Below are positions 7,532-22,026 of a DNA stretch of 64,000 nt, piece by piece. How positions within the stretch are numbered: position 1 is the stretch's first letter; each line of letters opens with the position of its first letter. The translations under genes and the position numbers were made by a program. Location of the stretch: the NCBI RefSeq assembly GCF_006912135.1, contig NZ_VIRS01000002.1:62001-126000 (forward strand), written 5' to 3'. The notes under the pieces were generated by a model. It did no database searches. It had not been told where the DNA came from and saw only the letters and a program-made list of their open reading frames with translations. The DNA comes from Cryptosporangium phraense (GTDB taxonomy: Bacteria; Actinomycetota; Actinomycetes; Mycobacteriales; Cryptosporangiaceae).

Positions 7532-8203
7532 GTGGAGAACGTCGTCGCGCCATCCGAGACGGATGCGCTGGAAACCCCGAGCCTGGTCGACCTGGCGGTC
7601 GCCCGGCTCCGCGCGGACATCCTCAGCGGCGGCACCGAACCGGGCGAAAGACTCATCGAGGAACAGCTCACCCGCCGTTTCGGCATCAGCCGCGCCCCGC
7701 TCCGCGAGGCGCTCCGCCTGCTGGCCCAGCAGGGCCTGATCGACCACTTCCCGCGCCGGGGGGCTCGCGTCGCCACGCTCACGGACGCCGACCTGCAGCA
7801 GCTGTACGGGGTGCGGGACGTCCTGGAGCGGTACGCGGTCGAGCAGGCGTTCCCGATCGACGACCCCCGCCGGCTGGTCGCGCTGCACGCCGAGCTCGAC
7901 GCGATGCGGGTGGCCGACGACGTGGGCGACCGGTTCGCGATGGCCGAGGCGCACCGGCGGTTCCACATCGCGCTGGTCGGGCTGGCCGACAACCGCCAGC
8001 TGGCCTGGGTGCACGAGTCGGTGCTGGTGAAGACCCAGCTCTACATGGCGATCAACCTGCGCCGCGAGGCCGACACCGGGCACGGCGCCGACAACGTGGC
8101 CCGCCACCGGCGCCTCTTCGACGCGATCGCGGTCAGCGGAGCCGACGCCGACACGATCGTCGCCGAGCTCGCGTCGCACGGCGCCCGCCAGTACATCTCC
8201 TAG
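7532..8203 (+). CDS. GntR/FadR-family transcriptional regulator (FCD type)
   Basis: A 223-residue regulator with an N-terminal winged helix (about 10-80, containing GERLIEEQLTRRFGISRAPLREALR in segments typical of the family) and an all-helical FCD ligand-binding domain (about 90-215) with histidines spaced as in metal-binding FadR members. The GTG start at 7532 is preferred over upstream in-frame starts, which would add over 100 residues of non-family sequence. It stands immediately upstream of two cysteine hydrolases, a permease and an AtzH-like gene on the same strand and is the obvious candidate local regulator. A near-palindrome TGTATGCA overlaps the start codon of the next gene and could be part of its operator (inference). 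Confidence 0.9.
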   Translation: MENVVAPSETDALETPSLVDLAVARLRADILSGGTEPGERLIEEQLTRRFGISRAPLREALRLLAQQGLIDHFPRRGARVATLTDADLQQLYGVRDVLERYAVEQAFPIDDPRRLVALHAELDAMRVADDVGDRFAMAEAHRRFHIALVGLADNRQLAWVHESVLVKTQLYMAINLRREADTGHGADNVARHRRLFDAIAVSGADADTIVAELASHGARQYIS

Positions 8204-8264
8204 CGTCATCGATACGTAACGCGCAGGAGCGGTTTCTGAAAAGAGTCGCTCGACAATCGACTGT

Positions 8265-8966
8265 ATGCAATCCGAGGGAACGGCCCGGATCGGGCCGGTG
8301 AACGCGCAGCCCTACGCCTGGCCGTACGACGGCTCGGTACCCGCCGACAAAACTGCACTTCTCCTCATCGACTGGCAGACCGACTTCTGCGGCCCGGGTG
8401 GTTACGTCGACTCGATGGGCTACGACATCGAGCTCACCCGGGCCGGTCTCCCGACCACCGCCAAACTGCTGGAGCACGCCCGCTCGATCGGGATGCTCGT
8501 CATCCACACCCGCGAGGGTCACGACCGCGACCTCTCCGACCTCCCGCCGAACAAGCGCTGGCGGTCGGCGCAGATCGGCGCCGAGATCGGGGCGCCGGGC
8601 CCGTGCGGGCGCATCCTCGTCCGCGGCGAGCCGGGCTGGGAGATCGTCCCCGAGGTCGCGCCGGTGCCCGGCGAGGTCGTCGTCGACAAGCCGGGCAAGG
8701 GCGCGTTCTACGCCACGAACCTCGACCTCGTGCTCCGGACGCACGGCATCACGCACCTCATCCTCACCGGCATCACGACCGACGTGTGCGTCCACACGAC
8801 GATGCGCGAGGCCAACGACCGGGGCTACGAGTGCGTGATCCTGTCCGACTGCACCGGCGCGACCGATCCCGCCAACCACGCCGCAGCCCTGCACATGGTG
8901 ACGATGCAGGGCGGCGTCTTCGGCTGCGTCAGCACCTCCGACGACATCATCGCGGCCACGAACTGA
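8265..8966 (+). CDS. biuH: Biuret amidohydrolase-like cysteine hydrolase (isochorismatase fold)
   Basis: This 233-residue isochorismatase-superfamily enzyme is predicted to hydrolyse biuret to allophanate and ammonia. The triad is D36, K142 and C175, in [17 protein letters not shown] and TDVCVHTT. These numbers match those I recall for characterised Rhizobium BiuH, and the flanking motifs ([30 protein letters not shown]) also resemble BiuH closely from memory. RutB-type ureidoacrylate hydrolase is the main alternative. No strong Shine-Dalgarno is visible before the ATG; the residue numbering supports this start. It leads a five-gene tandem cluster. Allophanate hydrolase is not in the window, so the next step must be encoded elsewhere. 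Confidence 0.85.
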
Positions 8967-8978
8967 CCCGGGAGGCGC

Positions 8979-9656
8979 ATGCCGATGCCCACTCTCTCCG
9001 TCGACGCCCGTCCCTACCCGTTCACCTTCGACCCGGCGACGACCGCGCTCGTCGTCATCGACATGCAGCGCGACTTCATGGAACCTGGCGGCTTCGGCGA
9101 GACGCTCGGCAACGACGTCAGCCTGCTGCGGTCGACGATCGAACCGACCGCGGCGATCCTCACCGCGTTCCGGGCCGTCGGCATTCCGATCATCCACACC
9201 CGCGAGGGGCACCAGCCCGACCTCTCCGACCTCCCGGACGCCAAGCGCGACCGCGGCAACCCGACGCTTCGAATCGGCGACGAGGGTCCGAAAGGCCGGA
9301 TCCTCGTCGTCGGCGAAGAGGGGCAGGACATCGTCGACGAGCTCAAGCCGCTTCCCGGCGAGCCGGTCGTCGACAAGCCGGGCAAGGGCGCGTTCTACGC
9401 GACGTCGTTCGGCGATCTCCTGGCCGAAGCCGGCATCAAGAGCCTGATCGTCGCCGGCGTCACCACCGAGGTCTGCGTGCACACGACCGTGCGCGAGGCC
9501 AACGACCGGGGCTACGAGTGCCTGGTCCTCGAAGACTGCGTCGGCTCGTACTTCCCGGAGTTCCACCGCGTCGCCCTCGACATGATCGCCGCCCAGGGCG
9601 GGATCTTCGGCTGGGTGGCCCCGTCCGCGTCCGTGCTCGACGCCCTGGAGAGATGA
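8979..9656 (+). CDS. Second isochorismatase-family cysteine hydrolase (BiuH/TrtA/RutB-like)
   Basis: A 225-residue paralogue of the preceding gene with triad D28, K133 and C166 ([28 protein letters not shown]). It shares the HTREGH and ANDRGYEC blocks with its neighbour but differs around the substrate pocket: the NKRWRS block is replaced by AKRDRGN and the final motif reads QGGIFGW. This suggests a related amide substrate such as triuret, ureidoacrylate or another ureide; the sequence alone does not decide. It begins 12 bp after the first hydrolase stop and its stop overlaps the permease start, so the three genes are almost surely one transcript. Tandem duplication followed by divergence is the simplest origin. 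Confidence 0.85.
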
Positions 9657-11329
9657 CGATGATCAAGCTTTCCCGCTCGGACACCGCCCTGCCGTTCTGG
9701 GTCCGGGGCGACACCAACGCGTTCTTCGGCTTAGGCATCAACGTGCTGGTCAACGTCCTGACGTTGTCGAGCCTGTGCCTGTTCGTCGTGCACATCCCCA
9801 AGGACGACGTCTTCGGCTCGATCCTGCCCGCGCTGGGCATCGCGCTCGTCGTCGGCAACGCGTACTACACGTATCTCGCCCGTCGCCTGGCCGCGCGCGA
9901 GAACCGCACCGACGTCACCGCGATGCCGTACGGGCCGAGCGTCCCGCACATGTTCATCGTCGTATTCCTGATCATGCTGCCGATCTACCTGAAGACGAAG
10001 AACCCGGTGCAGGCCTGGCAGGCCGGTCTGGCCTGGGCGTTCATCATCGGCATCATCGTGCTGATCGGCGCGTTCGTCGGCCCGTACATCCGGCGCTGGA
10101 CGCCTCGGGCGGCGATGCTCGGCACCCTCGCGGGAATCAGCATCACGTTCATCTCGATGCGCCCGGCCGGGCAGATGTGGGCCCAGGCCTGGATCGCGCT
10201 GCCGGTGTTCGCGTTGCTCCTGGTCGGGCTGTTCACCGACCTCAAGCTGCCGGGCAACATCCCGATCGGCTTGGCCGCGCTGGTGCTCGGTACCGCGATC
10301 GGCTGGATCGGCGGGGCGATGTCGGTGCCCGACGTCAGCGCGGCGGCCAAGGACATCGCGTTCGCGATCCCGACCTTCCACTTCGGTGACCTGTTCGACG
10401 GGTTGAAAGAGGTCGGGCCGCTGCTCGCGACCGCGATCCCGCTCGGCGTCTACAACTTCACCGAGGGCATGACGAACGTCGAGAGCGCCGCGACTGCCGG
10501 CGACAGCTACAACCTGCGCAGCGTCCTGCTGGCCGACGGCGCCGGCGCGGTGATCGGGGCCGCGCTCGGCTCGCCGTTCCCGCCCGCGGTGTACGTCGGT
10601 CACCCGGGGTGGAAGGCGGCCGGCGGCCGGGCCGGGTACTCGCTGGCGACCGGGGTAGTGATCGCGATCCTCTGCTTCCTGGGCATGTTCTCGCTGTTGG
10701 GGGCCGTGCTCCCGACGGCCGCGATCGTCCCGATCCTGCTCTACATCGGGTTGCTGATCGGCGCCCAGGCGTTCCAGGCGACACCACGGGCCCACGCGGC
10801 CGCGGTCGTCGCGGCGCTGATCCCGAACATCGCGTCCTGGGCGGCCGGGCAGATGGACAACGCGCTGGCCGCCGCCGGTACCACGGCGGCCGCGGTCGGC
10901 GAGGACGCGCTGAACAACGCGGGTGTGGTGTACGGGGGGTTGAACACGCTGGGGCAGGGCGCGGTGCTCGCCGGGATGGTGCTCGGTGCTCTCGTCGTCT
11001 TCCTGATCGACAAGAAGTTCATCGGCGCGACGGTGGTGGCCGCGGTCGGTTCGGTGCTCTCGTTCATCGGGCTGATCCACGCGCCCGAGGTCGGCTGGAA
11101 CATGAACGGTCCGGTCTCGCTCGGCTACCTGTTCGTCGCGGTGGTCTGCGCCGCGTTCGCGGCGACGCGTCCGGCGCCCCGGGTCCCCGACGCCGAGGAG
11201 ATCGAACTCGACCGCCTGCACGGCGGGGGAGCGGTCGTGCAGCCCGGCGAGGAGCCGGCCGCGACGGTGGTGCCGGCCGCCGACGCCATGCCCGCCCCGC
11301 GGGCGGTGCCCGCCGAGGAGAAGATCTGA
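9653..11329 (+). CDS. NCS2/AzgA-like purine or ureide permease
   Basis: This 558-residue integral membrane protein has about 12 hydrophobic segments and the layout of nucleobase:cation symporters (opening [21 protein letters not shown], read in two parts; later [15 protein letters not shown] in the conserved helix 8-like region). The last 80 residues form a charged, Ala/Pro-rich cytosolic tail. It should import a purine, pyrimidine or ureide across the plasma membrane. The ATG at 9653 overlaps the hydrolase stop as ATGA; a second ATG at 9659 has better spacing from GGAGAG and may be the true start. Its stop overlaps the next start (11329). Position between cysteine hydrolases and an AtzH-like gene suggests it supplies their substrate. 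Confidence 0.88.
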
Positions 11330-11721
11330 TGGAGGTGGACCGGCCGGAGATCGTGGCTGAGGTCCGTGCAGCGTTCTCTTCCTATGAGGACGCTTTGCAG
11401 CGGGACGATCGGGCCACGATCCTCGGCTGGTTCTGGGACGCCCCGGAGACCGTGCGGTTCGGGATCGCCGATCGCCAGAACGGCGTCGAGGAGTTGCGGG
11501 CGTGGCGGGCGGCCCAGCCTCCGGTGCCGCTCGGCCGAACGCTCACCGAGACCCGGGTCACGACGTTCGGCGCCGATTACGCGGTCGTGACCACGCTGTT
11601 CACCTATCCGTCGGGCGAGGCGCTGGGGCGGCAGTCGCAGACGTGGGCGCGGTTCGGCGTCGGATGGCGCATCGTGAGCGCGCACGTGTCGGAGATTAGG
11701 CTCCCCTCATGGCTGTCGTGA
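11329..11721 (+). CDS. AtzH-like (DUF3225, NTF2-fold) small protein
   Basis: A 130-residue protein resembling the AtzH/DUF3225 family, small cone-shaped NTF2-like proteins repeatedly found with s-triazine, cyanuric acid and ureide catabolic genes. Family-like features are the acidic N-terminal helix with SYEDALQRDD, a WFWD-like aromatic cluster, the ELRAWRAAQ segment, and the ending SQTWARFGVGWRIVSAHVS. Its exact reaction is not established from sequence. Its start codon is fused to the permease stop (ATGA) and its last 13 bases overlap the mhuD gene, so translation is probably coupled on both sides. The family context is what turns this cluster from generic amidases into a likely ureide pathway. 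Confidence 0.82.
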   Translation: MEVDRPEIVAEVRAAFSSYEDALQRDDRATILGWFWDAPETVRFGIADRQNGVEELRAWRAAQPPVPLGRTLTETRVTTFGADYAVVTTLFTYPSGEALGRQSQTWARFGVGWRIVSAHVSEIRLPSWLS

Positions 11722-12017
11722 AGATCAATGCGATCGAGGTTCCTGAAGGTGCCGGGCCGGAGCTCGAGAAGCGGTTCGGTGCCCGGCACGGCGCGGTCGA
11801 GGGGTCGCCCGGGTTCCTCGGGTTCGAGCTGCTGCGTCCGGTGAAGGGGGAGACCCGCTACTTCGTGTACACGCGCTGGGAGAGCGAGGAGCACTTCCAG
11901 GCCTGGGTGAACGGCCCGGCCATGGAGGCCCACTCGGGCGAACGCGCCCGCCCGGTCGCGTCGGGTTCGACGCTGCTGGAGTTCGAAGTCATCCAGTCCG
12001 CGGACCCCAAGGCCTGA
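11709..12017 (+). CDS. mhuD: MhuD-type heme-degrading monooxygenase
   Basis: A 102-residue dimeric ferredoxin-like (ABM/IsdG) protein predicted to bind heme and cleave it to a mycobilin-type tetrapyrrole, releasing iron. It matches mycobacterial MhuD almost end to end from memory: the opening VVKINAIEVP, the centre GFELLRPVKGE, and the heme-site residues N7, W66 and H75 are all present in the right spacing. Its start lies 13 bp inside the AtzH-like gene. This overlap places an iron-acquisition gene in a putative nitrogen operon, which is unexpected. The C-terminus (LLEFEVIQSADPKA) lacks the longer mycobacterial tail. Confidence 0.93.
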   Translation: MAVVKINAIEVPEGAGPELEKRFGARHGAVEGSPGFLGFELLRPVKGETRYFVYTRWESEEHFQAWVNGPAMEAHSGERARPVASGSTLLEFEVIQSADPKA

Positions 12018-12088
12018 TCGAGGTTGCGGGCCGGGAGCGTGATGCTCCCGGCCCGAAGCTCTGGGGTGGCGCGGTCGACGTCGGATTT

Positions 12089-12526
12089 GTGTCGATTACT
12101 CCCTCCGCTCCGGACGACCTCTACGCGCTCATGCAGCTCCACGAGACGCGTCAGGCGCTAGCCGCCCGTGCCTCGTACAGCCTGCTGCGCATCACCGCCG
12201 CCGTCCCGCCCGAGAATCGCTCGGTGTCCGGCGCCGCGGACGCCGGCCAGCAGGCCAGTGCGTGGCTGGCCGGCTCGTCGACCAACCCCGGCCGCTGGAC
12301 GACCCGCCGGGTGCTGGTCGCCGAGCTCCACGAGCTCGATCTGTTGCTGGCCGATCTGCACGGCCACCTGGTCGCGACGGTCGACTGGCTGGCCGCGCAC
12401 CTGGGCTCCCAGGCCGGCGGCCGCTCCGGCCCCCAGCACACGATCCGAGTCCCCCGAACGCTGCTGGCCGAGTGCACGACGCTCATCCACGATCTGGAGG
12501 CCCTGGCCCCCGCCGTGGCCGCGTAG
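12089..12526 (+). CDS. Hypothetical helical protein
   Basis: A 145-residue frame with GTG start and consistent GC-rich third positions. I do not recognise a family. It is mostly helical, with no signal peptide or membrane segment, and has one conserved-looking aromatic/charged core (HELDLLLADLHGHLVATVDWLAAHL, split by heptad-like leucines) that could form a coiled coil. No clear ribosome site precedes the GTG, and an antisense frame is also open, so the call is tentative. It follows mhuD by 71 bp and may be the tail of that unit. Confidence 0.5.
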   Translation: MSITPSAPDDLYALMQLHETRQALAARASYSLLRITAAVPPENRSVSGAADAGQQASAWLAGSSTNPGRWTTRRVLVAELHELDLLLADLHGHLVATVDWLAAHLGSQAGGRSGPQHTIRVPRTLLAECTTLIHDLEALAPAVAA

Positions 12527-13759
12527 CCCCTGACGTCCTGCCCTACTGGCCGCGACCGGCGCCGGTAGCGGGGTGGGTGCCGGTCCGGGGCGGGTGCGGT
12601 GCCGGTCCGGGGGTTGCGGAGTCAGTGCCGGTGTGAATCCGGTGCCGGTGCCGGTGTCCGGCCGGTCCGAGACCGGTGCGGGGCGGGGCCGGTGGGGTTG
12701 GGCCGCGCCCGATGCCCCACGCTTCACGCCGCTGAGGTCCCGGCCGGACCGGTTCGACCCCGGCTCGCCACGCCCGACCAGCTCACCTCATCCACCAGCG
12801 ACCGACGCGTCAGCCGACTGCGAGCGATCCGGCGCGCCGGTCGAACAGCCGCCTGCCCGCAGCGACCAGACGCTGCGGCCCTCGGCGACCCGCCCCTAGC
12901 GCCGGAAACCCGCCGCGGCGACGGCCGGCTCCTGCGGCCGCAATATGTGAAGCCCGTAGCCGCGACGGCCCGGTGGCGCGCCCGCCCTGAGCCGTGGTCC
13001 TCAGTGCGCCTTTCTGACGCGCTGCCGAGCCGGCGACGGCAGGTGTCCGTACCTCGGGGCGGCCGTGACTTGCGCCTACGCCGAGCCTGCGGCCCTGACG
13101 ACCGTCGGCCCGCAGCCCGCGGCGGCCCCGCGCCCGCGCGCCCGCTCCCGAGCGCTCGGCCACCCAGCCTGCGGCGGCCCGGTGGCTTGCGCCCGTAGCT
13201 GTATCGGCCCCCGGGGCCGCGTCGGCAACCCGTCTTGGGCCGTCGGGCGCGCCCGTGGCTCGCGGTGGCTCCGAATCGCGGCCTGTGTCGCCTCCGGTCC
13301 GCAGCTCGCGTCGGCCTCTGGGCTGCGGCCTGCGTCGGATCCTGGGACAGCGGCCCGTGAGGGGTCAGCCGCCGGCCATTCGCGGGGCAGCGTCGGGGTC
13401 GTGGCCCGCGCGGTCCGGCGTGGCCGGCGGCCCCAGCGTGTGTCCCCGGCTCGGGCGGCTGCCGGCGGCGCGCTCGCCTCCGATGCCGGGGTGCGGTCAT
13501 CGCCCGCGCCGCCCACGCTGCGCCCGCGCCGCCTGCGCTGCGCGCGCCCGCGCCGCCCGCGCTGCCCGTGCTGCGTCCGCTCGTGCGGCCTGCGCTGCGC
13601 TCGCAACTTGCCTTCGTCCGCGTCGAATGACGACTTGTCGGGGTCATCGGCGCGGAAATTAGCGCGATAAGTCGGCAGAATCGGTCGGCTCCCGCGGAAC
13701 TGCGTCGGCGGGGGCTCTGGTGCGGGATGCTCACCGCTGGTCGGCAACTAAGGAGCCAG
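12527..13759. other. Long gene-free GC-rich island I
   Basis: This 1.2-kb stretch holds no gene I can support. Several frames stay open on both strands, but only because the sequence is poor in A and T; the translations are Arg/Ala/Pro-rich and lack domains, and no start has a ribosome site. The first 200 bases are built from degenerate GTGCCGGT and GGTCCGGGG units, and the rest repeats words such as GGCCTGCG and CGTCGGCC. AT content rises only at the end (about 13640-13680), where the thioesterase promoter presumably lies. Compare the islands at 29.7-31.4 and 45.8-46.8 kb. Confidence 0.7.
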
Positions 13760-14293
13760 ATGACCGACGAACGACTGATCTCCGATCGAGGCATCACGGC
13801 CGGCGAGCGGTTCGCCGACGTCGACGAGTGGGAGAACCGCCGCGGGGAAGGGCCGCACCTGTGGCGGACGCTCGGGTACCGCCGGGCCGGCTGGTCGCCG
13901 GGCGCCACCGCGGTCGAGTGGGACGCCACCGCCGACTACTGCTTCCCGTCGGCCGGCGGCCCGATCGTCCAGGGCGGCCTGGTCACCGCGCTCCTCGACG
14001 CGGCGATGGGCGGCGCCTGCTGGACCGTCCTCGATCGGGACCAGGCGTTCCTCACCGCTGACCTGCGGGTCGAGTTCCTGCGCAGCTCCCGGCCGGGCCT
14101 GCTCCGGGCGACCGGCGAGGTGATCCGCCGGACCCGCCGGGTGATCTTCTGCGCCGCCGACCTGTACGACGCCGACGGCGCCCAGCTCGCCAGCAGCCGC
14201 TGCACCCAGGTGGTACTCCCGGCCGACGGACACGCCGGCCGCTACGGCCCCCCGGAAGCCGACGGCGGCCCACCCCGCGACGCCCGCGGTTGA
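13760..14293 (+). CDS. PaaI-family hotdog thioesterase
   Basis: A 177-residue acyl-CoA thioesterase-like protein with a single hotdog domain (about 30-160). The conserved helix reads IVQGGLVTALLDAAMGG, as in PaaI-type enzymes, where the loop before it and the Asp in LLDAAMG shape the active site; the strand AFLTADLRVEFLR follows. It should hydrolyse an acyl- or aryl-CoA in the cytosol. The ATG at 13760 is chosen because AGGAG lies 4 bases upstream. The stop falls within a 21-bp tandem repeat. It stands alone between an intergenic island and a convergent TetR gene. Confidence 0.85.
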   Translation: MTDERLISDRGITAGERFADVDEWENRRGEGPHLWRTLGYRRAGWSPGATAVEWDATADYCFPSAGGPIVQGGLVTALLDAAMGGACWTVLDRDQAFLTADLRVEFLRSSRPGLLRATGEVIRRTRRVIFCAADLYDADGAQLASSRCTQVVLPADGHAGRYGPPEADGGPPRDARG

Positions 14294-14330
14294 TCCCGCG
14301 ACGCCCGCGGTTGATCCCGCGACGCCCGCG
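14276..14330. repeat. 21-bp tandem repeat at the thioesterase 3' end
   Basis: Two perfect 21-bp units (CGCGACGCCCGCGGTTGATCC) at 14276-14296 and 14297-14317 plus a 13-base partial third copy. The first unit contains the thioesterase stop codon, so unit gain or loss would not alter the protein. Confidence 0.9.
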
Positions 14331-14359
14331 ACGCCAACGGCCGACCCCCGAACAAAACC

Positions 14360-14980
14360 TCAGACCGCCCGGCGCACCCCGGCCAGAATCAGATCCACCA
14401 GCTCATCGAGATACTCGTCGCTCTGCTCCCGAGCAGCCTCGCGCAGCTCCACCGGCGTCACCGCGACGTGCATGATCGTCGCGCCGAGAATCGCGTCCAG
14501 CACCACCGCGGGCGACGTGCCGGGAGGCAGCTCACCTCGGGCGGCCGCGCGCCGGACGATCTGGCGGGCGGCCGCGATCGTCGGGTGGGTGAGCCGGTCG
14601 CGGTGCTCGGCGAACTCGCTGTGCACCGCACCCTCGACCACCAGGCGCATGTACGTGACCCCGCCGTCGTCCCAGAACATGCCCAGCAACTGGGACCCGA
14701 GGTGGCGCAGGTCGGACCGGATGTCGCCGGTGTCGATCGAGACGTCGATCGACGCCCTGGCTCCCAGCGCGTCGAACAGGAGTTGCTGTTTGCTGTTCCA
14801 GCGCAGGTAGAGCGATGCCTTCCCGACGCCGGCGGCCTTCGCGACCCCGTCGATCGTGAAGCCGGCCCAGCCCTTCTGGCCGAACAGCTCGATCGCGGCG
14901 CGGAAGACGCGGTCTTCCAGGGCCGGGTCCCGGGGTCTTCCTCGGGGCGCGGGTGTCCGGGCGGGCGAGGTGGTGGTCAC
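14360..14980 (-). CDS. TetR-family transcriptional regulator
   Basis: A 206-residue repressor-type protein. The N-terminal helix-turn-helix (about 18-65) contains GWAGFTIDGVAKAAGVGKAS and the family's LY.RW recognition-helix end (LYLRWNSKQQLL). The C-terminal ligand domain resembles the TetR_C_16-like group (VVEGAVHSEFAEHRDR). It is convergent with the thioesterase gene and divergent from the degenerate radical-SAM-like gene across a 269-bp gap, either of which could be its target. No clear palindrome of operator size was found in that gap. Confidence 0.88.
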   Translation of the reverse strand: MTTTSPARTPAPRGRPRDPALEDRVFRAAIELFGQKGWAGFTIDGVAKAAGVGKASLYLRWNSKQQLLFDALGARASIDVSIDTGDIRSDLRHLGSQLLGMFWDDGGVTYMRLVVEGAVHSEFAEHRDRLTHPTIAAARQIVRRAAARGELPPGTSPAVVLDAILGATIMHVAVTPVELREAAREQSDEYLDELVDLILAGVRRAV

Positions 14981-15249
14981 AGGCTGTCCCCCACAGCTTT
15001 GGGGTCGTGGGTCGGAGGCCGGTCGCGGCCAACGCAGGGACTGAACCTAAATGGTCTGGTTCGTGGCATGCAATTCGGACTGCGACACGAGTTTATTCCG
15101 GTTGTCATCGTCAGTTAATCCGCGACCTCTGGACTGGAAGCACGCACCGCGGATCGATCCAGGACCGATTGACCCACGTGGCATTCCGGGATGCCGCTGA
15201 ATCGGTTCATGCCGCACGGTCCGCGGGACCGACGTACAGGAGGAGCACC

Positions 15250-15975
15250 GTGTCCCGGAACGGTGGCAAGGACGGCGGATCCGTACTCCGCGTCCGCATT
15301 GCGCGCCCGGTCGACAGACCGGCCCCGGCCGACACCAGAGCGTCGGTCTGTCGCTTCTGCCCATCGGCCCTGACGTCGGCCGAATCGCAACCGCTCCCGG
15401 TCCGGAGCCCGGCCCAGCTGGTCCTGCTGGCCCGGGACGCGTGGGAGGACGGCCTGGCCCGGATGTGGCTGACCGCCGAGGTCCCGGACGACGTCCCGCA
15501 CTACGTGCGTGCGGTCCGGGACGACGTCCCCGGGATGCGCGTCGCGGTGGACTGCGGTCCGGCCGACGCGTGCGTGCTCCACCAGCTCCGGACGGCCGGC
15601 GTCACCGACGTCGGGATCCACATCGGTTCGCTGGACGACGACGTACGAGCCCGCGATTCCGACGCCGAAGCCGTGCCGCTGTCGGGCTACGAACGAGCCT
15701 GGGACGAAGCGGTCCGGGTGTTCGGCCGCTACCGGGTCACCACGTGCCTGGTCGTCGGCGCCGGGGAGAACCCCGGCGACCTGGTGTCCGGGGCCGCGCG
15801 GCTGATCGCCCGCGGTGTGCAGCCGGTCGTCGTCCCCTACCGGGCCGGCACCGACGCGCTGGTCCGCTGGGCCGGCCAGGCCGTCGCCGACATGCTCCGC
15901 ACGGTCGGAGCGGGCAACTCCTCAGGCGCGGGCAGCTCCTCAACCGCAACCGGGCCGCACCCGATCATCACCTGA
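15250..15975 (+). CDS. Degenerate radical-SAM-like protein (MSMEG_0568-type relative)
   Basis: A 241-residue protein starting at GTG with GGAGGAG upstream. It aligns by eye with the C-terminal two thirds of the MSMEG_0568-type radical SAM proteins known from nitrilase-linked clusters: ASVCRFC, RSPAQLVLLARDAW, VDCGPADACVLHQL, GVTDVGIHIGSLD, FGRYRVTTCLVVGAGENPGD and VQPVVVPYRAGTD fall in the same order. Only two cysteines of a cluster site remain (C34, C37). The third cysteine, the segment before it and the C-terminal cysteine cluster are missing, so it probably cannot hold a standard SAM-binding 4Fe-4S cluster. The next gene is a nitrilase-family protein, the usual partner, and is also altered. 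I infer a repurposed or decaying pair. Confidence 0.65.
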   Translation: MSRNGGKDGGSVLRVRIARPVDRPAPADTRASVCRFCPSALTSAESQPLPVRSPAQLVLLARDAWEDGLARMWLTAEVPDDVPHYVRAVRDDVPGMRVAVDCGPADACVLHQLRTAGVTDVGIHIGSLDDDVRARDSDAEAVPLSGYERAWDEAVRVFGRYRVTTCLVVGAGENPGDLVSGAARLIARGVQPVVVPYRAGTDALVRWAGQAVADMLRTVGAGNSSGAGSSSTATGPHPIIT

Positions 15976-16023
15976 ACCCCTGCGCACAGTGATTCCGGAC
16001 CCACGACTCCCCTGGGGGAATTC

Positions 16024-16806
16024 ATGAGGACGACAAGGGTGGCGGCGGTCGCGGCGCCGTTCGGACGCGATCTCGACGAGTGCTTCGCCCGCATCGAGCG
16101 CCTGGTCGCGCTGGCCCGGGCCCGGGGCGTCCAGCTGCTGGCGCTGCCCGAGGCCAGCCTCGGCGGGTACCGGGCTCCGGACGCCGACGAGCCGCCCGCG
16201 CTCGACCCGGACGGCCCGGAGCTCCGGCGGCTGGCCGCGATCGCCGGCGACATGGTGCTGTGCGCGGGCTACTACGAGCGGGCCGACGAGGGCGTCCGGT
16301 ACAACAGCGCGGTCTGCGTGACCGGCGACGGCGTGCTCGGACGTCACCGTCAGGCGCACCAGCCGGGCGCCTTCGACACTCCGGTCGGCCGGATCGGGCT
16401 GATGATCTGCTACGACAAGGCGTCCCCGGACGCGGCCCGGGCGCTGGCCGCGGACGGCGCGGCCATCGGCGTCTGCCTCTCGGCCTGGCCGGCCAGCCGC
16501 GCCAACGCGTCACCCGACCTCGGGCGCGACCGCTGGACCCGCCAGTTCGACCTGTTCGACCAGGCCCGGGCGGTCGAGAACCAGCTGCTCTGGCTGTCGG
16601 CCAACCAGTCCGGACGCTTCGGCGACCTGCGGTTCGTCGCCAGCGCCAAGGTCGTCGACCCGGGCGGTGACGTGCTGGCGACGACCGGCGTCGCGGCCGG
16701 TGCAGCGGTCGCCGACGTGGACGTCGCCGAGGCCGTCGACCTGGCCCGCCGGGCCGTGTCGGCGCGCTACGCGAGCAGCTCCCGCAGGGAAGCGCAGATG
16801 GTCTGA
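16024..16806 (+). CDS. Nitrilase-superfamily protein lacking the catalytic lysine
   Basis: A 260-residue carbon-nitrogen hydrolase fold protein that keeps the nucleophile C129 (MICYDKASPDAARAL) and the general base E43 (LALPEAS). The catalytic Lys position reads Q110 (GRHRQAHQP), and the loop that normally separates this segment from FDTPVGR by some 15 residues is reduced to three. Family members from the MSMEG_0568-linked clusters read HRKVHQP followed by that loop, from memory. The protein is otherwise full length (CLSAWPASRAN, ENQLLWLSANQSG, GPGGD-like end). A GGGGGAA ribosome site precedes the ATG. The last 40 bases overlap the convergent esterase gene. It is probably inactive as an amidase unless another residue substitutes. 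Confidence 0.8.
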   Translation: MRTTRVAAVAAPFGRDLDECFARIERLVALARARGVQLLALPEASLGGYRAPDADEPPALDPDGPELRRLAAIAGDMVLCAGYYERADEGVRYNSAVCVTGDGVLGRHRQAHQPGAFDTPVGRIGLMICYDKASPDAARALAADGAAIGVCLSAWPASRANASPDLGRDRWTRQFDLFDQARAVENQLLWLSANQSGRFGDLRFVASAKVVDPGGDVLATTGVAAGAAVADVDVAEAVDLARRAVSARYASSSRREAQMV

Positions 16807-17705
16807 ACGGCCTGCTCGGACGCCGGGGACACCGGGCCCATGCCGAAGAAGCCGTGGATCAGCCCGTCGAACCGGTGGGCGATCGTCCGCACGCCGGCCT
16901 CGTTCAACGCGGACGCGTAAGCGTCCCCGGCGTCGCGCAGTGGGTCGAAGCCCGCAGTGGCCACCACCGCGGGCGGCAGCCCGTCGAGCCGTCCGCGCAG
17001 CGGCGAGAGCCGGGGGTCGGCCGGGTCGGCGTCGCGCGGGACGTAGTGGGTGGTGAACCAGATCATGTCCGACCCGGTGAGGAAGTAGCCCTCGGCGTTC
17101 TCGACCATCGACGGGTAGTCCCCGGCGAAGTCGGCCGCCGGGTAGAGCAGCAGTTGCGCGGCGAGGGCGGGGCCGCCGGCGTCCCGGCAGTCCTGGGCGA
17201 CGACCGCGGCCAGGTTGCCGCCCGCGCTGTCCCCGGCGACGGCCAGCCGGTCCGGATCACCGCCGAGGCCGCTTATCCGGGCCGCCGCCCAGCGGACCGC
17301 GGCCAGCGCGTCGTCGGCCGGTCCGGGGAACGGCGACTCCGGCGCGAGCCGGTACCCGACGCTGACCACGACCGCGCCGACCTCCCGGCACAGCCATCGG
17401 CACTGGTCGTCGTGGGTGTCGATGTCGCCGAGCACGAACCCGCCGCCGTGGAAGAACACGATCGTCGGCGTCGGGCCGTCGACGTCCGGGCGGTAGATGC
17501 GGCCGGGCAGCGGCGTCCCGTTCGCGCCGTCGATCGTCACGTTCTCGATCGCGGCGACCGGCACCAGCGTGGCCGGGTCGCGCACGTCGACCGTGAACGC
17601 GCGGAAGTTCGCGCGGGCTTCGGTGGGCGTGCCCGTACCGAGCTTCGGTATCTGCGGCGAGTTGATCAGCGCGAGTAACGGCACGAGGGACTGGTCGACC
17701 GGCAT
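16767..17705 (-). CDS. Alpha/beta hydrolase of the HSL/LipN esterase family
   Basis: A 312-residue esterase/lipase-like enzyme with the oxyanion motif HGGG (VFFHGGGFVLGD), nucleophile elbow GDSAGG, the acid in AGFDPLRDAG and the histidine in DGLIHGFFGM, so the catalytic machinery is complete. It is cytosolic, without a signal peptide. The ATG at 17705 follows the SDR stop by 14 bp on the same strand, giving a two-gene operon that faces a TetR gene. Such TetR/SDR/esterase sets occur in mycobacterial lipid-modifying loci like the mymA region (family knowledge). Its 3' end overlaps the convergent nitrilase-like gene by 40 bp. Confidence 0.92.
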   Translation of the reverse strand: MPVDQSLVPLLALINSPQIPKLGTGTPTEARANFRAFTVDVRDPATLVPVAAIENVTIDGANGTPLPGRIYRPDVDGPTPTIVFFHGGGFVLGDIDTHDDQCRWLCREVGAVVVSVGYRLAPESPFPGPADDALAAVRWAAARISGLGGDPDRLAVAGDSAGGNLAAVVAQDCRDAGGPALAAQLLLYPAADFAGDYPSMVENAEGYFLTGSDMIWFTTHYVPRDADPADPRLSPLRGRLDGLPPAVVATAGFDPLRDAGDAYASALNEAGVRTIAHRFDGLIHGFFGMGPVSPASEQAVQTICASLRELLA

Positions 17706-17719
17706 CGTTGCCTCCGAAA

Positions 17720-18598
17720 TCAGAACTTGGCCGTGCTGTTCTTGCCGAAGAAGCGGCCGGTCGCGAGCACCTCCGCCTCGAACTGCGGCACGTGATTCTT
17801 TGCCTGGGCGATCATCGCGCGTTCGACGAGCGGCCCCAGGATTATCGTCCGCATTGCCGACAGGACGGCCACCGAACGCGGGACGTACACCTTCCGCGCG
17901 CGCCGGGCGATGCTGTCGAGCAGCGTGGAGGCGCAGTCCTCCACCGAGACGGTCGCGCCGAGGAACCCGGGCAGGCGGCGGGCGCTCTCGCGGGCCGCAC
18001 CGACGTCGTCGCGCAGGTCGCGGACCATGTCGGTGTCGATCCAGATCGGATGGGCCGAACCGACCGTCACGCCCTTGTGGGCGACCTCGAGCCGCAGACC
18101 GTTGGCGAACTGCTCGACGCCGGCCTTCGCCGCGCTGTAGGCGGTCATGCCGGGCAGGATCGTGAACGCGGCCGCGGAGGAGATCAGCAGGTAGTGGCCG
18201 CGCGCGGCGGTCACCGCGGGCAGCGTCGAGGTCACCGTGCGGACGACGCCGAGCAGGTTCACCTCGATCACCCTGGCCACCGCCTCGGGCGGGGAGACCG
18301 CGATCGTGCCGTGGTTGGCGATGCCCGCGTTGGCCACGACGATGTCGATCGCGCCGTGCGCGGCCAGCGTGCTCTCGACCGCGGCTTCCAGCGCGGCCTG
18401 GTCGGTGACGTCGCACTCGGCCCAGCTCGCGGTGGGTCCGAGCTCGTCGGCCAGCGCCGACAGCCGATCGGGCTCGAGCCCGACGAGGGCCACCCGGGCG
18501 CCCGCGGCCGTCGCCTGCCGGGCCAGTTCGGCGCCGATTCCGCGAGCTGCGCCGGTGATCAGGACGGTCTTTCCACGGGGGAATTTTCGCGTAGCCAT
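17720..18598 (-). CDS. Short-chain dehydrogenase/reductase
   Basis: A 292-residue classical-type SDR with the NAD(P) motif TGAARGIG, NNAG equivalent VANAG, catalytic serine in LISSAAA and YSAAKAG (Tyr-x3-Lys). The C-terminal 70 residues are longer than the core and hydrophobic, resembling mycobacterial SDRs acting on lipid alcohols or ketones. The ATG has GGAGAG five bases upstream. It is the first gene of a two-gene operon with the esterase and its promoter region contains a perfect palindrome next to the divergent TetR gene, so repression by that TetR protein is the simplest reading. Confidence 0.92.
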   Translation of the reverse strand: MATRKFPRGKTVLITGAARGIGAELARQATAAGARVALVGLEPDRLSALADELGPTASWAECDVTDQAALEAAVESTLAAHGAIDIVVANAGIANHGTIAVSPPEAVARVIEVNLLGVVRTVTSTLPAVTAARGHYLLISSAAAFTILPGMTAYSAAKAGVEQFANGLRLEVAHKGVTVGSAHPIWIDTDMVRDLRDDVGAARESARRLPGFLGATVSVEDCASTLLDSIARRARKVYVPRSVAVLSAMRTIILGPLVERAMIAQAKNHVPQFEAEVLATGRFFGKNSTAKF

Positions 18599-18619
18599 GA
18601 CATCTCTCCGGGGTCAGGC

Positions 18620-18643
18620 GTCTGGTACTGCGTAGTACCAGAC
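18620..18643. promoter_or_regulatory. TetR-type operator, perfect 10-bp arms
   Basis: GTCTGGTACT and AGTACCAGAC flank a 4-base spacer GCGT, giving a perfect inverted repeat in the 85-bp gap between the divergent SDR and TetR genes. A further GGTACC core at 18655-18660 may be a weaker second site. Size and position are typical of a TetR repressor site controlling both genes. Confidence 0.85.
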
Positions 18644-18683
18644 TGTCGGTGACGGTACCATTCGGGCGAGGAGGGGGACAGAG

Positions 18684-19331
18684 GTGACATCGTCCGCGAC
18701 GCGACATTCCGAGCAGGCTCGCCCCGCCGACCGCTCGGCCGAGAACGCGCGCGCGAACGGCCACCGCGTCCGACTGCTCGCGGGCATGGCCACCGCGCTG
18801 GTCGAGAAGGGCTACAGCGCGGTGACGATCGCCGACATCGCCCGCCACGCCCGGGTCTCCAAGCGGACGTTCTACGAGCACTTCGCCGACAAGCAGGAGT
18901 GCTTCCTCGCGGTCTACGCCTCGGCCAGCGACCGGCTGCTCCGGCTGGCCGACGAGGCCGCGCAGCCCGATCTGGGCTGGGTCGAGCAGGTGCGGGCCGC
19001 GGTGCACGCCTACCTGGCGGCGCTGCAGACCGAGCCGGCGCTCACCCGCACGATGCTGCTGGAGATCCAGTCGGCCGGTCCGGAGGCGCTGCGCCTGCGC
19101 CGGCGTGGGCAGCAGCGGTTCGCCACGCTGCTGCTGGAGCGGGCCGAAGAGGGAGCGCGAGCGCGCCCCGGGGCCCGGCCGATCTCGGCCGCGATGGCCA
19201 CCGCGGTGATCGGCGGGCTGAACGAGCTGGTGCTGGAGGCGGTCGAAGACGGCCGCGCGGACCGGCTCACCGAGCTGGACGCGGTCGCCACCGAGTTCGT
19301 CCGCGCGGTGCTGGTGGCGCCCGGGGAGTAG
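18684..19331 (+). CDS. TetR-family transcriptional regulator, divergent from SDR-esterase operon
   Basis: A 215-residue TetR protein with an N-terminal DNA-binding domain (about 25-75) containing GYSAVTIADIARHARVSKRTFYEHF in pieces, ending in the classic TFYEHFADKQ, and a TetR_C-type helical ligand domain. A GAGGAGGGGG ribosome site precedes the GTG. Divergent orientation across a perfect palindrome strongly suggests that it represses itself and the SDR-esterase genes. The ligand is unknown; a fatty or lipophilic compound would suit the target enzymes (inference). Confidence 0.92.
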   Translation: MTSSATRHSEQARPADRSAENARANGHRVRLLAGMATALVEKGYSAVTIADIARHARVSKRTFYEHFADKQECFLAVYASASDRLLRLADEAAQPDLGWVEQVRAAVHAYLAALQTEPALTRTMLLEIQSAGPEALRLRRRGQQRFATLLLERAEEGARARPGARPISAAMATAVIGGLNELVLEAVEDGRADRLTELDAVATEFVRAVLVAPGE

Positions 19332-19350
19332 CCCCCGGGCGCTCACCCGG

Positions 19351-19722
19351 TCAGACTTCGAGGTCGTTCTCGACCCGGGACAGCTGGTGACGCGCCATCG
19401 CCAGGTTCGCCCGCTGGCGGTCCAGCGCCAGGTAGATGAACAACCCCTTGCCCGACCGCGACTGCACCGGCCGAATGATGTGGTACTGGTGCCGCAGCGT
19501 GATCAGGATGTCGTCGATGTCGGCACCCAGGTTGAGCATCTCCATCGTGCGCATCTTGGCCCGGACGACGTCGGTGTTGCCCGCGGCGGCGACGTTCAGG
19601 TCGAAGTCCTTGGTGCCGCCGAGCGTGCCCAGCGCCATCCCGCTGTTGTAGTCGACGAGCGCCACACCGATCGCTCCTTCGATCGTCATGGCCTCTTTGA
19701 GGGCGGTGTCGACGTTTGCCAT
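19351..19722 (-). CDS. Roadblock/LC7-domain protein A
   Basis: A 123-residue single-domain Roadblock/LC7 protein (GAIGVALVDYNSGMALGTLGG, broken across strand and helix). Such proteins dimerise and serve as regulators or scaffolds for MglA/Rab-like small GTPases. AAAGGAGAG precedes the ATG. It is the last of four minus-strand genes, 22 bp after the preceding Roadblock gene. No GTPase, histidine kinase or DUF742 partner of the classical conservon lies in the window, so its partner must be elsewhere or the module is of another type. Confidence 0.9.
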   Translation of the reverse strand: MANVDTALKEAMTIEGAIGVALVDYNSGMALGTLGGTKDFDLNVAAAGNTDVVRAKMRTMEMLNLGADIDDILITLRHQYHIIRPVQSRSGKGLFIYLALDRQRANLAMARHQLSRVENDLEV

Positions 19723-19744
19723 GTTCTCTCCTTTGTAGAGGGTG

Positions 19745-20257
19745 TTACCGGTTCGACGTTGCTTCCTCGAGCAGGGCGGCCAGGCGGTTCGCGACCTGCC
19801 GCGCCTCCAGGTGGAGCCGGCCGATGTTCGTCTCCTCGCCGGTGAGGACGGTGAGGACGGCCCGCGGGCCGGCGGCGTACGTCGCCACGTAGCCGCGGGT
19901 GCCCCGGGTGACGGTCTCGGCGAACTGGCCGGGGCCCACGCTCTCGATCACCCGCTGGCTGAGCCCGAGCACGGCCGCCGACATCGCGGCCATCCCGTCC
20001 GGTTCGATGCCGTGGGTGTCGTGCGCGACCAGCCGCCCGTCCACGCTCGCGACCAGGCTCCCGGCCACGTGGCGGACCCGATCGCGCAGCCCCCGGATCT
20101 GGGCCAGCACCTCCGCCTCGTTCTCGCGCTCCACCACACTCCCTTCGTCGGTTCGGAGCTCCTTCAGCCGGGCCGGGCGTCGCGGCACCAGTGGGCCGAC
20201 CCGCTGCGTCGGCAGCGCGACGGCTCGCCAGGATCCGAGCGGCCAGCGAGCGCTCAT
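19745..20257 (-). CDS. Roadblock/LC7-domain protein B
   Basis: A 170-residue protein with a Roadblock domain in its last 120 residues (VAGSLVASVDGRLVAHDTHG, then GLSQRVIESVG and GYVATYAAGPRAVLTVLTG). The ATG at 20257 overlaps the stop of the DUF4388-like gene as ATGA and gives a 40-residue basic N-terminal extension. A GTG near 20136 preceded by AAGGGAG would give a domain-only protein and could be the real or a second start. It is the third gene of the four-gene module. Confidence 0.82.
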   Translation of the reverse strand: MSARWPLGSWRAVALPTQRVGPLVPRRPARLKELRTDEGSVVERENEAEVLAQIRGLRDRVRHVAGSLVASVDGRLVAHDTHGIEPDGMAAMSAAVLGLSQRVIESVGPGQFAETVTRGTRGYVATYAAGPRAVLTVLTGEETNIGRLHLEARQVANRLAALLEEATSNR

Positions 20258-21363
20258 CGGAGGCCCTCCAGCGCGTTGCGGACCCGGGAGAGCAGTCCGG
20301 TGTCCGGTTCCGGTACGTCGAGCACCGACCCGGATGGAACGCCCGGCTGCGGCCCGACCGGGACGACCCCGCGTAGGGCGGCCCCCGGCTGCCGCCGGGG
20401 AAGCGGCGCCGAGTGCGCCGGCCGCCGTACGGGCAACGGCCGCGTGGCCTCGGCCGGCCCGTCGGCCGAGGGTGATCCGGACGACGATGATCCGGACGAC
20501 GATGGTCCGGACGATTGGGACGCTTCCGGTGGCGGCGAGATCGCGGGCGGCGACGAGGTGGCGGCGGCCGGCGGCCCGGGGTCGACGGGCAGGGCCGGCA
20601 CGTACGGCGGCGCAGCGTACGGCGGGACGGCCCGCGAGGGAGCCGCGTGCGCCGGGGGCAGGTTGAGCGGGGGAGCGGCGACGACCCGGATCAGGCCGGC
20701 GGTGATCAGGCGGCGGGTCTCGAGCACGGCGCTGAACGCCGAGCGCCCGAGCAGCCGGGCCAGCTCCCGTGGGGTCCGCCGGCCGTCCGCGTGGACGACC
20801 AGCTCCCACTGCAGATCGGTCAGGACGACGTGGTGGCGCCCGAGACGCCCGGCGGCGACCACCGGCTGGTCGTCGGCGTCACCGGGAGGCGTCCGCTCGA
20901 GTAATCGGCGTCGTTTGCGGACCTGGGCCTCCAGGGCGGCCGGAGCGACCCGGCGGAGCGCGCCCCACCAGTGCCCCTCGCCCGGCGCGAACCGGACCTC
21001 GCCCGGAGGGGCCATGAACAGCGCGAACGCCCCGTCGGCGATCGCCGTCGCGGTGCACAGCTCGGCCTCGCCCCGGCTGAGCGCACCGGACTTGACCAGC
21101 ACCTCGCCGACCTGACCGGCGGCGGCCCCGGCCGTCCAAGCGGTCTGGAACACCGACGGCGGCACGGTGCCGGACGCCTGTAACAGGCAGTCGACCCCGG
21201 GCGCGGCCGGCGTCTGCACGTAGTAGATCTCGCCGTCGAGCAGGTAGATCGATCCCCCCTCGACGTGAACCGCGCCGGTGGCCCGGCCCGCGGTCAACTC
21301 GTCCAGAGCCTCGGGAACACCTCCCCAACGGCGGGGAGCCACCTCGGCCGAGACGCCGGACAT
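20254..21363 (-). CDS. DUF4388-like / winged-helix protein with Pro-rich tail
   Basis: A 369-residue protein. Residues about 10-140 resemble DUF4388/PatA-type domains (TGAVHVEGGSIYLLDGEIYYV in pieces, then QVGEVLVKSGALS), which are often encoded beside Roadblock and MglA genes in other bacteria. A helical winged-helix-like segment follows (LTDLQWELVVHADGRRTP, RRLITAGLIRVV). The last 140 residues are a low-complexity Pro/Ser/Ala linker ending in a short amphipathic helix (LLSRVRNALEGLR). Start and stop overlap the flanking Roadblock genes (1 and 4 bases), so the three products are probably made in fixed ratio. DNA binding is possible but unproven. Confidence 0.72.
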   Translation of the reverse strand: MSGVSAEVAPRRWGGVPEALDELTAGRATGAVHVEGGSIYLLDGEIYYVQTPAAPGVDCLLQASGTVPPSVFQTAWTAGAAAGQVGEVLVKSGALSRGEAELCTATAIADGAFALFMAPPGEVRFAPGEGHWWGALRRVAPAALEAQVRKRRRLLERTPPGDADDQPVVAAGRLGRHHVVLTDLQWELVVHADGRRTPRELARLLGRSAFSAVLETRRLITAGLIRVVAAPPLNLPPAHAAPSRAVPPYAAPPYVPALPVDPGPPAAATSSPPAISPPPEASQSSGPSSSGSSSSGSPSADGPAEATRPLPVRRPAHSAPLPRRQPGAALRGVVPVGPQPGVPSGSVLDVPEPDTGLLSRVRNALEGLR

Positions 21364-21740
21364 CAGCCCAGCACCAGGTCGGACGCGAGCCCGGCGAGCC
21401 GGTGGCGGGCCATCGCCAGGTTCGCGTGCTCCCGGTCGAGCCAGAGGTAGAGGAAGAGCCGGCTGTCCAATCTGGCGTTCAGGAACCGCAGCACGTGATA
21501 GCGGGCGACCGAGGCCACCACGATGTCCTCGACGATGTCGCCCTCGGCCGAGACCGCGAACGTGGCGTTCTCCAGCGCGGCCCGGGCGACCTCGGTGGCC
21601 CCGGCGGCCGCGGGCTCCTCGCCGCAGGGCCAGTCACCGGCGCTGCCGACGGCCAGGCCGGAGGCGTAGTCGACCAGCCCGGCGCCGAGGACGCCGGGAA
21701 TGGACATAGCGGTGCGGAGGCTCTCGTCGATCCCGGGCAC
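21363..21740 (-). CDS. Roadblock/LC7-domain protein C
   Basis: A 125-residue Roadblock/LC7 protein (VLGAGLVDYASGLAVGSAGD) clearly paralogous to Roadblock protein A: both end with the same helix pattern (HANLAMARHRL against RANLAMARHQL). It is the first gene of the module and its stop shares one base with the next start. A 286-bp gap separates it from the divergent PAS-GGDEF-EAL gene; that gap must hold both promoters, and I see no clear symmetric operator. Confidence 0.9.
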   Translation of the reverse strand: MPGIDESLRTAMSIPGVLGAGLVDYASGLAVGSAGDWPCGEEPAAAGATEVARAALENATFAVSAEGDIVEDIVVASVARYHVLRFLNARLDSRLFLYLWLDREHANLAMARHRLAGLASDLVLG

Positions 21741-22026
21741 ACGTCACCTCTCCGCTGGTGCGACCGGCTCGCGCGGTACTGGTGAGCAGCCAGTGCCGGG
21801 CGGGGCCGGTCGGTCGTGCGCCCCAGCAGGGATCTTACGACTACAGATCGCGCTGGTGTGAGCGCTGTGCGTATTCTGTGTGGCTCGGGTTCATACCTGC
21901 ATGTATCGATTTGCGGGCAGCGCGATCGCGGCCGGACGACCGAGGCCGGACCGGTCGTCCGGTACCGGTGGATCGATACCGCCCGTATGCTCAGCGCTCG
22001 TCGGAATCAGGAGCGGAGGCTTACGC

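Follow-up and report, generated by a model that had tools for sequence, protein, structure and literature searches.

Evidence for a genus-wide nitrilase-fold pseudoenzyme beside a radical-SAM remnant in Cryptosporangium phraense

Organization of the locus

We analyzed a stretch of 64,000 nucleotides (the window) on contig C2 of the Cryptosporangium phraense genome, which totals 8.46 Mb. Comparisons within the genus covered four genomes, namely that of the window species and those of three relatives (G001, G002, and G003). A divergent TetR-type regulator gene (14360 to 14980, minus strand) carries the Pfam domains TetR_N and TetR_C_11, and its orthologues in the three relatives are syntenic with 87–90% identity. 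It is followed by two ORFs on the plus strand. The first (15250 to 15975) encodes a 241-residue, eroded relative of the MSMEG_0568-type radical-SAM protein, and the second (16024 to 16806) encodes a putative nitrilase-fold pseudoenzyme of 260 residues. Translation would start at GTG 15250, preceded by AGGAGG, and at ATG 16024, preceded by GGGGGA. An earlier sequence-only reading had described both frames as open with sound ribosome-binding sites, and we found the same. It had also advised a search for a full-length copy of the cluster elsewhere in the genome; such a copy is present on contig C25.

A leader or promoter block occupies the gap between the TetR gene and the operon (15082 to 15135, plus strand) and is kept in the relatives, with an identity of 94% over 54 bp in G001, 83% over 65 bp in G003, and 82% over 57 bp in G002. 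It precedes the nitrilase-like gene in the three relatives and the radical-SAM ORF in the window. The block contains two similar words, GAGTTTATTC and AGTTAATC, which are possible half-sites for a regulator.

The intact cluster on contig C25

The C25 cluster comprises an MSMEG_0569-type flavoprotein, a 0572-type protein, a radical-SAM protein, a 0567-type GNAT/AIR-synthase protein, and a 0565-type glycosyltransferase, each scoring above its family cut-off. It also encodes two C-N hydrolases, a-type and b-type, both below every NCBIfam cut-off among the matches listed. The Nit1C cluster is known and has been linked to cyanide assimilation in Pseudomonas (PMC11049912). Its full gene set (the MSMEG_0568 set) was found on C25, with the a-type and b-type hydrolases replacing Nit6803, and not in the window. 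In the MSMEG_0568-type or Nit1C cluster (PMC1199592, PMC11049912), radical-SAM and nitrilase-family genes lie close together on one strand, as they do in the window; in contrast, the window has two eroded members only, and the other genes are on C25. The C25 a-type protein differs from the nitrilase of Nit1C in not belonging to the Nit6803 family (TIGR04048, 43 bits vs. 503).

An intact cluster was also found in G001. In G002 and G003, which are draft genomes of 98 and 99% completeness, neither a further nitrilase relative (threshold 1e-30) nor a radical-SAM relative (1e-10) was detected, and TIGR04044 had no match at 0.001.

The nitrilase-like protein lacks the catalytic lysine

The product of 16024 to 16806 belongs to the C-N hydrolase fold, matching Pfam PF00795 (CN_hydrolase) with 114.7 bits (cut-off 23.2; 6.1e-33). 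A single-chain AlphaFold2 (AF2) model, built from an alignment that contained 35 of the 80 a-type homologues from named genomes, reached a pLDDT of 91.4 and a pTM of 0.90. The best Foldseek match of this model was among C-N hydrolases (7.2e-20, TM 0.80). The protein shares 71% identity with the C25 a-type hydrolase, 53% with the C25 b-type, and 67–72% with the 35 named a-type sequences aligned.

Glu43 (codon 16150 to 16152) and Cys129 (codon 16408 to 16410) are present. The position of the catalytic Lys is occupied by Gln110 (codon 16351 to 16353), and the loop that follows the Lys is deleted. In contrast, E-K-E-C is found in each of the 80 a-type proteins drawn from named genomes (the best 80 of 240). 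Alignment to the a-type sequences bears out the earlier claim of a Gln for the catalytic Lys and a deleted loop, and a different placement of the Lys, which would have undone that claim, is ruled out, as HRQAHQP of the window protein stands opposite HRKVHQP. Of the 94 columns that are invariant across the 35 a-type sequences, 82 are kept in the window protein. The 12 lost columns include the Lys, the residue next to it, and four loop positions that are gapped, 6 in all.

The enzymes of the nitrilase superfamily have a Glu-Lys-Cys catalytic triad (PMC1199592). The window protein does not have this triad, as the Lys is replaced by Gln and the loop is deleted. Judged by the triad of the superfamily, the protein is probably inactive as a nitrilase (PMC1199592). 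Some residual chemistry may persist, because Glu43 and Cys129 are kept in two of the four genomes.

The pseudoenzyme is conserved in the genus

Orthologues of the nitrilase-like gene were found in all three relatives (88, 86, and 78% identity). They are syntenic, adjoining the TetR, thioesterase, and SDR orthologues in each case. The positions of Glu, Lys, and Cys read E/E/G/D, Q/Q/N/T, and C/C/S/G in the four proteins. Glu is kept in the window species and G003 and replaced by Gly in G002 and Asp in G001, and Cys is kept in the same two and replaced by Ser in G002 and Gly in G001. The Lys is thus absent and the loop behind it shortened in all four genomes, and Glu and Cys are also gone in two. 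The loop of the window copy is shorter still than that of G003, and its C-terminal tail differs from the relatives. Across the four proteins, 189 of the 248 ungapped columns (76%) are invariant, and chance variation at all three catalytic positions would have a probability of 0.0135.

Pairwise NG86 dN/dS values of the nitrilase-like gene among the four genomes were 0.12–0.19. The corresponding values were 0.10–0.17 for the TetR gene, 0.12–0.20 for the thioesterase gene, 0.20–0.39 for the SDR gene, and 0.20 for the intact a-type nitrilase gene. On the branch of the window copy alone, calculated by hand with G002 and G003, dN was about 0.05 and dS about 0.38; the resulting ratio of about 0.14 is a branch average and would also fit a function that this species lost only very recently. 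The situation that would have spoken for pseudogenes, that is, orthologues with intact motifs and a relaxed rate here, was not what we observed. Shared catalytic loss combined with purifying selection was found for the nitrilase-like gene only, in all four genomes. Since the catalytic loss is common to the four genomes and the dN/dS values resemble those of the neighbouring genes, the data support a pseudoenzyme retained at the genus level and argue against recent decay. Given its preservation, the protein probably serves a new purpose that involves no cleavage.

In a class sample of 394 genomes that excluded G001 to G003, the window copy scored 528 bits, followed by the C25 a-type protein at 369 bits. 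No further pseudoenzyme of this type stood out among the best candidates per genome scored in that sample. In the order sample (397 genomes), the best match outside the genus scored 339 bits.

The radical-SAM ORF is strongly diverged

The three-cysteine motif of radical-SAM proteins serves their [4Fe-4S] cluster. The C25 protein contains it as C-x8-C-x2-C, and the window protein has CRFC only (C34, codon 15349 to 15351, and C37, codon 15358 to 15360), the first motif Cys being absent. Like the MSMEG_0568 radical-SAM protein (TIGR04043), the window protein has a homologous core with CRFC; the differences are an N-terminus shorter by about 80 residues and the loss of the first Cys of the motif and of the cysteines at the C-terminus. 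It scored 110.3 bits with TIGR04043, below the cut-off of 303.7, and matched profile positions 120–316 of 354, whereas the intact C25 protein scored 484 bits. The C-terminus is not a mere truncation: in the family alignment, which is weak in this region, CAACGAC of the C25 protein is opposite SSSTAT and a gap, and the C-terminal part has no Cys where the majority of homologues have a Cys segment. The motif, the TIGR04043 span, and the alignment therefore agree with the earlier description of a relative that keeps only C34 and C37 and has lost both terminal cysteine regions.

The span of the ORF, counted with the N-terminus that it lacks, takes in 168 family-invariant positions. It retains 72 of these, while 37 fall in gaps and 59, including the first Cys of the motif, are changed. 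Over residues 33–211, the ORF product and the C25 protein share 47% identity. Core identity to C25 was 46%, against 74–91% for 29 family members that were fetched, and the branch of the ORF in the tree was saturated. Compared with C25, the window ORF differed at 35, 32, and 46% of first, second, and third codon positions, and six homologues at 9–16, 7–15, and 32–43%. At the first two positions, the window values exceed those of the homologues by a factor of 2.1 to 4.5, which suggests much relaxation.

The coding pattern is nevertheless not that of plain neutral decay. GC by codon position in the core was 0.80/0.53/0.92; the six aligned blocks share one open frame, and the gaps are in-frame. 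We simulated neutral decay without indels from 13 homologue starts to a target identity of 0.50 (observed, 0.46) at assumed equilibrium GC values of 0.62, 0.70, and 0.78. Absence of a stop codon together with a GC3 of at least 0.92 occurred in 0, 3, and 9 of 400 runs; absence of a stop alone occurred in 58, 69, and 119 of 400 and is not rare. The frame, GC3, codon pattern, and in-frame gaps speak against plain neutral decay but are no proof of function.

A single-chain AF2 prediction, for which 37 of 71 homologues, all intact, were in the alignment, gave a pLDDT of 79.4 and a partial barrel with six main strands. The best PDB match of the model was human LIAS (2.9e-07, TM 0.57), and the intact homologues in the alignment favour such a fold. 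No orthologue of this ORF was found in G001, G002, or G003, the sole match in G001 being its intact cluster, and no radical-SAM match was found beside the nitrilase-like genes of these relatives.

Neighbouring genes in the relatives

In all three relatives, the stop codon of the nitrilase-like gene overlaps the longest frame of a flavoprotein gene by 10 bases, a value that refers to this longest frame. The flavoprotein is genus-specific, about 500 residues long, and has weak NCBIfam matches only (L017:11413-12921, L018:6649-8250, L019:7890-9389). At 1e-60, with the five best candidates per genome scored, it was found in 3 of 298 genomes of the order, all in the genus, and no match was obtained in the window genome. 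Remnants of the PucR, flavoprotein, and AMP-binding genes gave no convincing tblastn match in 8001 to 22000 of the window. The PucR-type regulator gene of the relatives was not found in the window, where 12527 to 13727 has no coding pattern.

Origin of the two ORFs

Nitrilase trees were built, with and without the distant nitrilase L004, from 3 of 17 b-type sequences and every third named a-type sequence (26 of 80). In the free tree, the pseudoenzymes joined a 14-row group that includes Modestobacter and Klenkia (support 40/41); they were placed elsewhere in the tree that included L004. The approximately unbiased (AU) test gave p = 0.21 for the nitrilase and p = 0.33 for the radical-SAM ORF under a duplication of the C25 cluster within the genus. 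In the gene tree of the pseudoenzymes, the other three genomes group to the exclusion of G001, with modest support. The radical-SAM ORF would therefore require one gain in the window species or two losses elsewhere.

Possible roles of the two proteins

The reading to which we give about an even chance is a genus-level pseudoenzyme kept for its fold and used in binding or scaffolding, in the genus most likely with a flavoprotein as partner, control by TetR, and an old radical-SAM remnant in the window species. An a-type nitrilase of the MSMEG_0568 cluster would have been placed, by duplication or transfer, behind the leader shared with the divergent TetR gene. It would then have lost the Lys and the active-site loop, and afterwards have been retained for its fold. 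The gene arrangement and co-occurrence suggest that TetR controls the operon and that the pseudo-nitrilase acts as a non-hydrolytic partner of the flavoprotein, possibly as a subunit, a scaffold, or a ligand-holding chaperone; the two may be co-produced through translational coupling. In the window species, where the flavoprotein is absent from the matches, the shared leader would instead be read into an old, fast-diverging radical-SAM remnant. This remnant, of the same cluster kind, could hardly hold a normal [4Fe-4S] cluster and would be at most a fold or binding partner. The proposed partnership fails to explain the window species, because the flavoprotein was not found there, yet the pseudo-nitrilase looks constrained.

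Slow decay, in which the nitrilase-like gene had a role in the genus but the operon is collapsing in the window species, leaving the radical-SAM ORF as a relic that stays open by chance in G+C-rich DNA, appears rather unlikely to us. It would account for the flavoprotein and PucR-type genes, which stand beside the locus in all three relatives and were not found here, for the divergent C-terminal tail of the window nitrilase, for the low share of invariant positions kept in the radical-SAM ORF, and for the many neutral runs that ended without a stop. It conflicts with the own-branch dN/dS of the nitrilase-like gene and, in the radical-SAM core, with the frame and GC3. The sequence-only reading had preferred a non-catalytic role to recent decay. 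For the nitrilase half, this held up, with the catalytic loss in four of four genomes and a low dN/dS; for the radical-SAM half, it is no more than possible: no orthologue was found in three relatives and the sequence is extremely diverged, but the frame, GC3, and in-frame gaps oppose plain decay.

Distinctly less probable is a new non-catalytic complex formed by both gene products as a dead radical-SAM/nitrilase pair. The adjacency of the genes on one strand, both open with ribosome sites, their order (radical-SAM before nitrilase, as in the intact cluster), and the six main strands of the barrel predicted for the radical-SAM core would fit such a complex. On the other hand, the radical-SAM ORF is extremely diverged and missing in every relative that keeps the nitrilase-like gene, so the nitrilase-like protein works without it there. 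The view that the two were altered in parallel, as a joint event, is not supported, because the Lys loss is common to four genomes and the radical-SAM ORF occurs in one. A related idea, that chemistry-stripped C-N hydrolase and radical-SAM folds form a non-catalytic pair under TetR and that the dead nitrilase swaps partners across the genus, taking the flavoprotein in three species and the dead radical-SAM protein in the window species, seems similarly doubtful. We think it very unlikely that the nitrilase-like protein helps the catalytic C25 cluster, for instance by forming mixed oligomers with the a-type nitrilase. The window genome and G001 do have an intact cluster, and in the canonical cluster an intact nitrilase already stands beside one changed from Cys to Asp, but the pseudoenzyme is kept in G002 and G003. 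It is thus not simply a helper of a catalytic nitrilase, because these two genomes show no intact cluster.

Because these two genomes retain the pseudoenzyme, a function independent of the cluster can be tested directly. Glu, Lys, and Cys all vary among four genomes in which 76% of the columns are fixed, which provides a natural experiment on the retention of the nitrilase fold. Our search of the literature on nitrilase or radical-SAM pseudoenzymes found no paper evidently on either. It has been proposed that nitrilases lost their association with the cluster and possibly took on new functions (PMC1199592). The Nit1C cluster itself is already known; what is new is the genus-wide nitrilase pseudoenzyme beside a radical-SAM remnant.

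The b-type hydrolase of the intact cluster

The b-type hydrolase (L010:4960-5880, minus strand; genes in L076-L155) has Asp in place of the catalytic Cys in all 79 sequences from named genomes, 79 of 81 matches having passed the length filter. Asp also replaces Glu in 78 of these 79, and both changes occur in 17 of 17 order-level sequences. The order-level and named counts are not independent, because the sets overlap with identical rows; the order-level a-type set (29 rows) includes the distant nitrilase L004. Nitrilase rows of genomes of the order are identical to rows from named Modestobacter, Klenkia, and Saccharothrix, in keeping with an actinobacterial host of the window. Like the window protein, the b-type is seemingly dead; it differs in keeping the Lys, and the window protein is nearer to the a-type. 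The b-type is a conserved paralogue adjoining a live a-type in the intact actinobacterial cluster. A seemingly dead paralogue is therefore already normal in this cluster, since the b-type lacks the catalytic Cys.
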